Shown: piece after piece, positions 20,995-23,565 of the stretch
How positions within the stretch are numbered: the stretch's first letter is position 1
Layout of the letters: every line of letters begins with the position of its first letter
IMG/VR virus record: IMGVR_UViG_3300023109_000140
Span: 1 to 23,801 of that record
Length of the DNA stretch: 23,801 bases
DNA from: a virus
Strand: one strand, 5' to 3'
Made by a program: the position numbers and the translations under genes
Notes under the pieces: model-generated
What the model was told of the DNA's origin: nothing
Databases searched by the model: none
Seen by the model: only the letters and a program-made list of their open reading frames with translations

Positions 20995-21585
20995 ATGGCA
21001 ACCGTTTTTGACGACTTATTATTGAGAGGTATTCGTTCGGGGGAGATCCCTGCACGGACACAATCATCACGTGAGTGGTTCCGGTCTGCAGCACAAGGCA
21101 AGTCTGGAGCTACACCTGAAAAAATTGTTAGAGGTAACAGAGAAGCTTTAAAGAACCGTCCTGCCATTGGTAGAATGTATCACTTTTATTATGATCCAAA
21201 AACGAAAGCTTCTCTACCATACTATGACACATTCCCGCTAATATTTATGGTCGGTGGCGCTCCTGGAGGTTTCTATGGTATCAACTTGCATTACCTACCC
21301 CTCAAACTCAGAGCACAGCTTATGGATGCTCTGTATGACACCGCTAATAACAAAAGGTTCGACGAAAGCACTAAACTTAAAATATCATATGATATTCTCA
21401 AAAGTGCTTCGAAATTTGGACCATTCAAACCAACGTTTAAACATTACCTAAAATCAAACGTTAGATCAAGATTTATTCAAGTAGAACCTTCAGAATGGGA
21501 TATTGCTCTGTTCTTGCCAACAGAGAGATTTGAGAAAGCTTCTAAACGTAGAGTCCATGCCGACAGTAGGAAAATGCTCAAATGA
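20995..21585 (+). CDS. gp2: DNA end protector / head completion protein gp2
   Basis: This 196-aa protein has the pattern I associate with T4-like gp2 proteins: an N-terminal MATVFDDLLLRGIRSGEIPA and SREWFRSAAQGK segment, then IGRMYHFYYDPKTKASLPYY, DTFPLIFMVGG, and GGFYGINLHYLPLKLRAQLM followed by DALYDTANN. gp2 binds the ends of packaged DNA and protects them from RecBCD when the genome enters the cell (known T4 role). It is shorter than T4 gp2 (274 aa). Adjacency to gp4 supports the call. The stop overlaps the next gene as ATGA. No strong ribosome site is seen apart from a G-rich TTGGGG about 10 nt upstream. Confidence 0.72.
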   Translation: MATVFDDLLLRGIRSGEIPARTQSSREWFRSAAQGKSGATPEKIVRGNREALKNRPAIGRMYHFYYDPKTKASLPYYDTFPLIFMVGGAPGGFYGINLHYLPLKLRAQLMDALYDTANNKRFDESTKLKISYDILKSASKFGPFKPTFKHYLKSNVRSRFIQVEPSEWDIALFLPTERFEKASKRRVHADSRKMLK

Positions 21586-22319
21586 CATTTAACATCCAAA
21601 CCTTAACAAGTTCTATAGAAAAGACAGGAGTCGCCAAGGCTTCTCACTTTGAGGTTCAATGCACTGCTCCAAGTCCAGTCTCAGAGATGGAAAGAGATAT
21701 GATGTATCGGGCAGAGGCTGCTGAGATTCCAGGAAGATCTCTAGCAACTGTAGAACACAAGTTTGGTAATATGGGACCAATTACTAAAATCCCCTATTCT
21801 CAAGTCTTCACAGATATGACAGTCACATTCTTGTTAAGTGAGGATTTGAGAGAAAAACAATACTTCGAGATTTGGCAAGAGCTTATGTATAACACAGGCG
21901 CTTTTGAAAGTGGTTCTTCAACAGGTATGAGTAAATTCAAACCAAAGTATTTTGATGATTACACAGGAAGTGTTATCATACGTCAATATGGAGCAAACGG
22001 TAATCTGAGGACGATCACAACGCTCGTGGATGCCTATCCAATCATAATTTCTCCGATCTCTACCAATTGGAGTTCTGGAGAACTTATGAAGATGAATGTG
22101 ACTTTTGCTTATAGATACTACAAGCTTGCGTTTGAGATGCAAGATCAGCCACACAGAGTTGCGCAAGGTGGGATCTCTATTGGTCGTGGTGGCATAAAAG
22201 CCAACTTGAATTTGGGACCACTTAATCTTGGGCTAAATAACGGGAGAGTTTCAGGGAGCGTAAAAGCCCCAACGTTACAAACACCCCTGGGACCAATTGG
22301 CTTTAGAATTAGAATTTAA
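21582..22319 (+). CDS. Tail-tube-fold protein, probably tube initiator gp54
   Basis: This is a 245-aa protein. It begins MTFNIQTLTSSIEKTGVAKA, then SHFEVQCTAPSP. The core has the signature of the gp19/gp48/gp54 tube fold: YRAEAAEIPGRSLATVEHKF, ITKIPYSQVFTDMTVTFLLS, LREKQYFEIWQELMYN, and a final MNVTFAYRYYKLAFEM strand. gp48 is already present on the minus strand, so gp54, which starts the tube, is the best fit; a second tube-like protein remains possible. It is shorter than T4 gp54 (320 aa). The C-terminal 50 residues are Gly/Leu/Asn-rich (LNLGPLNLGLNNGRVSG). The start overlaps the gp2 stop as ATGA. Confidence 0.7.
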   Translation: MTFNIQTLTSSIEKTGVAKASHFEVQCTAPSPVSEMERDMMYRAEAAEIPGRSLATVEHKFGNMGPITKIPYSQVFTDMTVTFLLSEDLREKQYFEIWQELMYNTGAFESGSSTGMSKFKPKYFDDYTGSVIIRQYGANGNLRTITTLVDAYPIIISPISTNWSSGELMKMNVTFAYRYYKLAFEMQDQPHRVAQGGISIGRGGIKANLNLGPLNLGLNNGRVSGSVKAPTLQTPLGPIGFRIRI

Positions 22320-22334
22320 TGATAGGATATAATA

Positions 22335-23045
22335 ATGCTACCACAAATATCAACACCAAGCTTTTTTACTAAGCTTCCGTCATCAGGTCAAGAGATTGAA
22401 TATCGCCCGTTCCTTGTAAAAGAGGAAAAGATCCTGCTGATGGCAATTGAGGGTGGTGACTCTAAAGAGATTATGAACGCTGTTTTGAAGATTGTCGGAG
22501 ATTGTGTAAAAACAGAGATTGACGCCGATAAAATCTCAACATTCGATGTTGAGTATTTGTTTTTAAAGCTCCGTGGTAAATCTGTCGGAGAAGTTATTGA
22601 ATTAACCCTCACACACCCGCAAGGAGAGTGTCAGGCAAAGACAAAGGTGGCACTAAACCTTGATGACATTCAGGTCCAAGGTGTTGTTACCGATGGTAAG
22701 ATTATGATTACTGATGAGGTGGGAGTTAAGATGAGGTATCCAAATCTAACAGATATGGATAGAATTCAGAAAGCTCTTGAGAATGATAATACTGGATCAA
22801 CATTTGATATTATTGCTATGTGCGTTGAATATATTTTTGATAATGAAGATGTTTACAACGATTACACAAAAAATGATTTGGAAGAATGGTTGGGTAATTT
22901 GAATCAAAGTCAGTTTAAAAAGATCTCTGACTTCTTTTCCAGTGCACCCAAACTTCGCCATGAATTAAATTGGCAATGCAACAGTTGCGGTGAAAAAGAA
23001 ACACTTGTTCTGGAAGGGCTTGAAAGTTTTTTTACCTTAGCATGA
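22335..23045 (+). CDS. gp26: Baseplate hub/tail assembly protein, T4 gp26/gp51 type (PF12322-like)
   Basis: This is a 236-aa protein. The N-terminus (SFFTKLPSSGQEIEYRPFLV, then KEEKILLMAIEGGDS) and the DFFSSAPKLRHELNWQCN segment with a C-x-x-C (CNSC, about residue 215-218) match the T4-like hub assembly protein I recall as gp26/T4_baseplate family. T4 gp26 has 208 aa. Role: assembly of the central hub or chaperoning of the tape measure (inferred). Its last codons are TTT TTT inside a run of seven T. The stop overlaps the ATG of a 57-aa ORF. An upstream AGGA in GATAGGATATAATA serves as ribosome site. A -1 slip at the T run would extend the protein to 293 aa. Confidence 0.8.
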   Translation: MLPQISTPSFFTKLPSSGQEIEYRPFLVKEEKILLMAIEGGDSKEIMNAVLKIVGDCVKTEIDADKISTFDVEYLFLKLRGKSVGEVIELTLTHPQGECQAKTKVALNLDDIQVQGVVTDGKIMITDEVGVKMRYPNLTDMDRIQKALENDNTGSTFDIIAMCVEYIFDNEDVYNDYTKNDLEEWLGNLNQSQFKKISDFFSSAPKLRHELNWQCNSCGEKETLVLEGLESFFTLA

Positions 23046-23073
23046 TACATGACTCCTTAGCGAATATGTATCA
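23027..23073 (+). promoter_or_regulatory. Probable programmed -1 frameshift signal
   Basis: Seven T at 23027-23033 are read in the gp26 frame as T TTT TTT, an X XXY YYZ slippery heptamer. After a 9-nt spacer, TGATACAT (23043-23050) pairs perfectly with ATGTATCA (23066-23073) across a 15-nt loop. A -1 slip reads TAC CTT AGC and then joins the 57-aa ORF in frame. The -1 frame opens only at 23024, so the window for slippage is tight and contains the heptamer. The stem is AT-rich (two G-C pairs), which weakens the case somewhat. Confidence 0.65.
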
Positions 23074-23215
23074 GATGAATTTCGCACTAATGCAACACCA
23101 TAAGTATAGCTTAACTGAGCTAGACAATATGATACCCTTTGAACGTGACATTTATATTACTTTGTTAAAACATCATCTTGAGGAAGAAGAAGAAAAACAA
23201 AAACAAAGGAAATAA
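23042..23215 (+). CDS. 57-aa ORF: -1 frameshift extension of gp26 or coupled small protein
   Basis: Read from the ATG at 23042 (overlapping the gp26 stop as ATGA), the protein is 57 aa: MIHDSLANMYQMNFALMQHH, then KYSLTELDNMIPFERDIYIT, then LLKHHLEEEEEK and a basic end. The pattern 'short helix, S-x-x-E-[LI]-x-x-M-[IP]-[FY]-E-x-x-[IV]' resembles the small C-terminal part of tape-measure chaperones (lambda T part, P2 E'). No ribosome site precedes the ATG. It is reachable by a -1 slip at the T run 9 nt upstream, giving a 293-aa fusion with gp26, or by termination-reinitiation. The next gene begins 2 nt after its stop. Confidence 0.75.
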   Translation: MIHDSLANMYQMNFALMQHHKYSLTELDNMIPFERDIYITLLKHHLEEEEEKQKQRK

Positions 23216-23217
23216 AA

Positions 23218-23565
23218 ATGGCTGCAAAGCAACTAGAATCAGGTTCCGCATTTGACTATCTCGATGAAGATGGTGACGGAGTAATCACCGACGATGAAAT
23301 GGCTCGTGCAAAAGAGATCGCTGAGTTCGAACACCAACGAGCGATGCGTGAAAACGAAGATAAGAAAGAAGATCAAATTAGATCTATGGCGTGGTTCGCT
23401 CTTTGGGGTATGCTACTCTATCCTATATTGATCCTTGCTACGTCTTTGTTTGGTGTTGAAAAAGCTGCAACTATTATCGGAGATATTGCTCCAACATACT
23501 TTGTTGCTATCGCTGGTTTGGTAGCTGCATTCTTTGGCGCTCAGGCGTATACTAAAGGAAAATAA
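23218..23565 (+). CDS. EF-hand protein with two membrane segments
   Basis: This is a 115-aa protein. Residues 16-27 (DEDGDGVITDDE) are a complete EF-hand loop with Asp at 1, 3 and 5, Gly at 6, Ile at 8 and Glu at 12, so calcium binding is likely. A charged helix follows (residues 28-55). Two hydrophobic segments come next, about 57-79 (WFALWGMLLYPILILATSLF) and 88-108 (APTYFVAIAGLVAAFFGAQA), with a short charged tail. The two-helix hairpin with a cytosolic N-terminus is holin-like in outline, but nothing else supports holin. The ATG has AAAGGA 7 nt upstream. It sits between the gp26-type gene and a probable tape-measure gene, so a tail-linked or injection-linked role is inferred. I recall similar unnamed proteins in marine phages. 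Confidence 0.8.
   Translation: MAAKQLESGSAFDYLDEDGDGVITDDEMARAKEIAEFEHQRAMRENEDKKEDQIRSMAWFALWGMLLYPILILATSLFGVEKAATIIGDIAPTYFVAIAGLVAAFFGAQAYTKGK

Follow-up and report, generated by a model that had tools for sequence, protein, structure and literature searches.

The locus analysed here is very probably the tail assembly chaperone region of a T4-like myophage, carried on a stretch of 23,801 nucleotides from a marine T4-like virus (IMG/VR record IMGVR_UViG_3300023109_000140), which we refer to as the window. Its features, named as predicted, are as follows.

21582..22319, + strand: tail tube family protein in a gp54-like position, upstream of the gp26-type gene (PF23849, E 1e-9; phrog_45, E 7e-33)
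22335..23045, + strand: gp26-type gene (TAC-N, putative short chaperone), 236 aa (PF12322 T4_baseplate, E 3e-64; phrog_150 baseplate hub, E 1e-67)
23010..23018, + strand: Shine-Dalgarno-like stretch CTGGAAGGG, of the weaker GAAGGG form, located 8 nt upstream of the heptamer, at a position enriched for GGAGG/GAGGG across relatives
23024..23215, + strand: open region of the −1 frame, stop-free in 64/64 complete relatives
23027..23033, + strand: slippery heptamer T TTT TTT with X XXY YYZ phasing, in-phase as T TTT TTN in 69/69 non-redundant relatives
23042..23215, + strand: gp51-type ORF (TAC-C), 57 aa from its ATG (phrog_634, E 6e-26; also the phrog_150 C-terminus)
23043-23050 and 23066-23073, + strand: arms TGATACAT and ATGTATCA of a predicted stem-loop with a 15-nt loop (folding and covariation)

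In its own frame, the gp26-type gene ends with the codons GAA AGT TTT TTT ACC TTA GCA TGA, the last of which is the stop codon at 23043-23045. The open region of the −1 frame is preceded by a TGA at 23021-23023, and the overlap with gp26 is ∼20 nt. A ribosome that translates gp26 as far as 23033 and continues in the −1 frame, using 23033-23212 after the slip, would give a predicted fusion of 233 + 60 = 293 aa (33.8 kDa). An initial sequence-only reading had described the heptamer in the right phase, a perfect 8-bp stem 9 nt after it, the short overlap and the 293-aa fusion, and all were found in the sequence; the tube gene that it had placed before the gp26-type gene is also present, as the tail tube family protein. 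The ATG at 23042 overlaps the gp26 stop codon as ATGA, and no ribosome site was found before this ATG in the window. Runs of seven T residues are depleted in the window, with two found and 16.6 expected by shuffling.

Directly 3′ of the gp51-type ORF, window positions 23218-23565 hold an EF-hand/membrane-like ORF of 115 aa, with a weakly EF-hand-like N-terminus and a hydrophobic stretch. No tape measure was recognisable in the 78 codons remaining in the window after this ORF, and the last ORF, which is cut by the window end, has no family match.

The 236-aa protein scores 217 bits against PF12322 (cut-off 24.5), gp26 relatives are present in 982 phage records, and NCBIfam gave no useful match. 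The 57-aa ORF, which had been treated as anonymous, matches phrog_634, the family of the gp51 ‘baseplate hub assembly catalyst’, as well as the last ∼40 positions of phrog_150, past the end of gp26 (E 1e-6), and by these family matches we identify it as gp51. In the cyanophages S-PM2 and P-SSM2, annotation splits the same pair into a gp26 gene and a gp51 gene, and one frameshifted gene can appear as two in database annotation. The ‘baseplate hub assembly catalyst’ entry of Vibrio phage D479 (L091:3439-3531) is a 93-nt fragment, and the −1 frame from the heptamer yields a full gp51 tail.

For the comparison across relatives, loci were drawn from 80 IMG/VR loci together with reference phages, and the gp26 stop and the −1 frame were located in each. 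The comparison set comprised 69 loci of less than 90% nucleotide identity, the window counted in, mostly from marine phages. Eight loci were left out: phages T4 (L083) and Merlin (L094), which have gp51 as a gene of its own; three with the −1 arrangement and no heptamer, from Ackermannviridae and Vibrio phage D506 (L084, L090 and L092); Stenotrophomonas phage IME-SM1 (L088), which has an indel; a copy of the window (L082); and a locus cut before the stop codon (L031). Apart from these eight, no locus lacked the heptamer.

An in-phase T TTT TTN precedes the gp26 stop codon in all 69 loci (42 TTTTTTT, 25 TTTTTTC, one TTTTTTA and one TTTTTTG), at a distance of 0 to 42 nt from it. The codon before TTT TTN always ends in T while its amino acid varies between Ser, Asp, Asn, Ala and Gly (log10 P −18.9 against background usage), and TTT is the only codon seen for the first Phe (log10 P −10.7, again against background usage); the trials behind both P values are not independent, because the relatives share ancestry. 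From the heptamer, the −1 frame stays open for 59-71 codons in the complete loci, having opened a median of only 24 nt upstream of it. On this comparison, the recurrence of heptamer, phase and −1 ORF in 69/69 relatives, taken with the depletion of T7 runs, goes beyond chance.

The ATGA overlap fits a different reading, in which ribosomes re-initiate at the overlapping ATG after the gp26 stop and gp51 is made as a separate 57-aa protein. Annotation agrees with such coupling to the extent that gp51 is listed separately in cyanophages and in an Aeromonas phage, and is a separate ORF in Vibrio phage nt-1. However, an ATG is absent near the junction (the first eleven −1 codons) in 35/69 loci, and ATG, GTG and TTG are all absent in 24/69. 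The sequence-only reading held that the second ORF lacks a ribosome site of its own, and this extends beyond the window: none of the 34 loci that do have such an ATG carries a ribosome site of at least 5 nt before it. Coupling also leaves the invariant in-phase heptamer and the wobble bias unexplained. The T run, its phase and the frame relation are thus kept while the ATG is not, the pattern that had been set in advance as the check on frameshifting, and frameshifting is therefore favoured over re-initiation. We consider coupling on its own very improbable, while some coupled initiation may occur alongside frameshifting.

Phage T4 bears on the same question. The T4 proteins gp26 (208 aa) and gp51 (249 aa) each match PF12322 as well as phrog_150; of the 282 positions of phrog_150, gp51 reaches position 280 and gp26 stops at 235, and the two proteins align directly to each other (E 2e-6). 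The tail of T4 gp51 aligns with the −1 product of the window from the slip site onward, so that in T4 the same tail is fused in frame to a gp26-like domain, which also argues against gp51 as a free-standing 57-aa protein. T4 gene 26 ends in TTC TTT GAG, without a slippery run, and T4 genes 26 and 51 are separate, on opposite strands and divergently placed. From the paralogy of the two T4 proteins and the alignment of the gp51 tail, it follows that the two T4 genes correspond to the one frameshifted gene of the window; by sequence comparison, T4 gp26 is the short form and T4 gp51 the long form, encoded by separate paralogous genes.

Two further signals flank the heptamer. Upstream, GGAGG or GAGGG lies 6-22 nt from the heptamer in 39/69 loci, compared with 0.8% of control windows placed elsewhere in the same genes, and 27 of the 34 matches of at least 5 nt to the Shine-Dalgarno consensus have their 3′ end exactly 10 nt from the heptamer. 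A conserved Leu-Glu-Gly uses GAG for its Glu in 36/49 cases, as against 18/79 at other Glu-Gly pairs. The GGAGG/GAGGG element is, by its sequence and position, a likely candidate for a frameshift stimulator.

Downstream, predicted folding in 40-nt windows is on average strongest at +10, counted from the first base of the heptamer, with a mean of −7.45 kcal/mol versus about −4 kcal/mol elsewhere, and both this signal and the Shine-Dalgarno-like one are retained in a stricter set of 48 loci. The stem of the window is moderately stable (−8.7 kcal/mol; z −1.84 against shuffles, with 12/200 shuffles as good; z −0.85 against gp26 windows). Among 31 nearer relatives, three of its pairs have changed on both sides, above shuffles and slid controls, including a compensatory A-U to G-C change in nine sequences. 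Different, lineage-specific stems occupy the same position in S-PM2 (L001), P-SSM2 (L093) and two further loci (L055 and L058). The 8-bp stem of the window was rejected as a universal element, being perfect in 16/69 loci and retaining at least seven pairs in 23/69. A stem-loop at a fixed place, with a sequence that varies by lineage, is likewise a likely candidate stimulator as judged from predicted folding and covariation. The window's own stimulators are weak (GAAGGG, and a stem with z −1.84), and the stem is not clear in every relative, which counts against the frameshift reading.

The fusion could also arise in transcription, with a U added at the T run in some mRNAs and ordinary translation of these reading through into the second frame. 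RNA polymerase can slip on T7 runs, and an added base fits the frame relation. However, the run is limited to six T's and a following C in 25/69 relatives, as it is in Stenotrophomonas phage Marzo, and the strict phase, the upstream Shine-Dalgarno-like motif and the downstream stem-loop point to the ribosome. We rate transcriptional slippage as marginally less probable still than coupled re-initiation, and regard both as unlikely.

Some loci depart from the usual junction. The Ackermannviridae (SFP10 and UPM 2146) and Vibrio phage D506 retain the −1 relation of the gp51-like frame, and their sites read ATT TTC ATT TAA or CTT TTC AAG TAA, in which the only in-phase slippery sequence is a T_TTC tetramer. 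The persistence of the −1 arrangement in phages that lack the T7/T6C heptamer counts against the frameshift reading. A +1 arrangement considered for IME-SM1 (L088:3100-3320) was rejected: its slippery run is one T shorter than that of phage Marzo (L105:300-440), which has the usual GAT TTT TTC GGC TGA, and its annotated gp26 reads past the usual stop. A homopolymer error or indel is likely in IME-SM1, because Marzo has one more T.

The gp26 structure model, built from a 58-sequence alignment, has a pLDDT of 90. Its closest solved structures are 3fgx (Z 7.6), 2ob9 (Z 7.5) and 3klu (Z 7.1), the next being at 4.6, and Foldseek ranked 2ob9 first with a weak E of 0.5. The chaperones HK97 gp13 (2ob9) and Bacillus YqbN (3klu) have a fold like that of the first ∼90 residues of gp26, whereas gp26 is about twice as long and carries a C-terminal Cys-X2-Cys segment. 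A gp26 profile run against the PDB returned no sequence match to its chains. A model of T4-type gp51, drawn from only seven sequences, gave no chaperone match in the structure search (best Z 4.7), though gp51 may still have one. The fold match of gp26 over ∼85 residues is supportive only, because Z below 8 can reflect a common arrangement; with that weight, the modelled N-terminal domain resembles the HK97 and YqbN tail assembly chaperones. The link to the tape-measure-chaperone family suggested earlier is supported by this match and by the T4 gp26/gp51 paralogy.

We hold with high confidence that this is a tail assembly chaperone locus with a predicted −1 frameshift at T TTT TTT giving a short and a long form. 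The site and its phase, their conservation, the dispensable ATG, the enriched stimulators, the paralogy and the predicted fold are the observations here; what we infer is that slippage takes place, at what rate, and that the proteins act as chaperones in this phage. Most ribosomes would reach the gp26 stop codon and produce the short form, TAC-N, of 236 aa. A minority would slip by −1 on T TTT TTT, with tRNA-Phe re-pairing on UUU UUU, aided by the upstream Shine-Dalgarno-like sequence and the downstream stem-loop, and would go on to produce the long form, TAC-NC, of 293 aa, carrying the gp51 tail. If lambda gpG/gpGT is taken as the model, the portion common to both forms would bind the tape measure, and the tail portion would bring in tube subunits or parts of the hub. 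Against the frameshift reading, U_UUU_UUU was less shift-prone than A_AAA_AAG in synthetic constructs in E. coli, according to PMC5009743.

The tail assembly chaperones of T4-like phages have been identified before (Vladimirov, Gautam and Davidson, Virology 2022, 566:9-15). PMC12846349 attributes to that study the poly-T −1 slippery sequences of T4-like TAC-N genes, and PMC10885494, which also cites it, describes a short gene and a fused long gene, in place of frameshifting, in some T4-like phages. The sequence-only reading had implied that the frameshift was new for T4-like phages; our finding for the window is correct but, because the 2022 work is credited with T4-like poly-T slippage, already described, and −1 frameshifting in T4-like chaperone genes is on this account already known. 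Thus gp26 and gp51, long called a baseplate hub subunit and assembly catalyst, would belong to a general tail-chaperone system, a reading published in 2022. The abstract of that study reportedly names T4 genes 26 and 51 and describes frameshifting as conserved in several T4-like groups. Beyond the 2022 reading, the present work adds a large comparative test, mostly in marine phages, together with a set of signals that are likely to be stimulatory. Among titles and abstracts, we met no description of the Shine-Dalgarno-like element and stem-loop for these phages, which is weak evidence of absence.

Compared with known systems, the window is closest to the T4-like TAC-N/TAC-NC genes of Vladimirov et al. 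2022, which, according to the citing literature above, are of the same gene family and use the same −1 poly-T frameshift. Phage T4 shares the family (PF12322) and differs in having two separate genes, 26 and 51, with no frameshift site in gene 26. Lambda G/GT, as described in PMC5009743, resembles the window in that one locus gives a short and a −1 extended chaperone acting on the tape measure, and the putative −1 frameshift of lambda G/GT design proposed by the sequence-only reading agrees with the heptamer and open −1 frame found throughout the comparison set. Any relation of lambda G/GT to gp26 rests on fold. The lambda slippery heptamer differs from that of the window. As a tentative proposal, which we place somewhat short of even, a dnaX-like three-part cassette would drive the T4-like chaperone frameshift, made up of a Shine-Dalgarno-like GGAGG 10 nt upstream, the T run and a fixed-place stem-loop whose sequence is replaced by lineage; in the Ackermannviridae/Vibrio D506 branch the heptamer would have disappeared, leaving T_TTC as the sole slip site, and the cassette is perhaps undescribed for these phages. 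The likeness to E. coli dnaX lies in a Shine-Dalgarno-like element ∼10 nt upstream, a slippery heptamer and a downstream stem-loop, whereas dnaX differs in its A AAA AAG site, in being a host gene and in encoding an unrelated protein.
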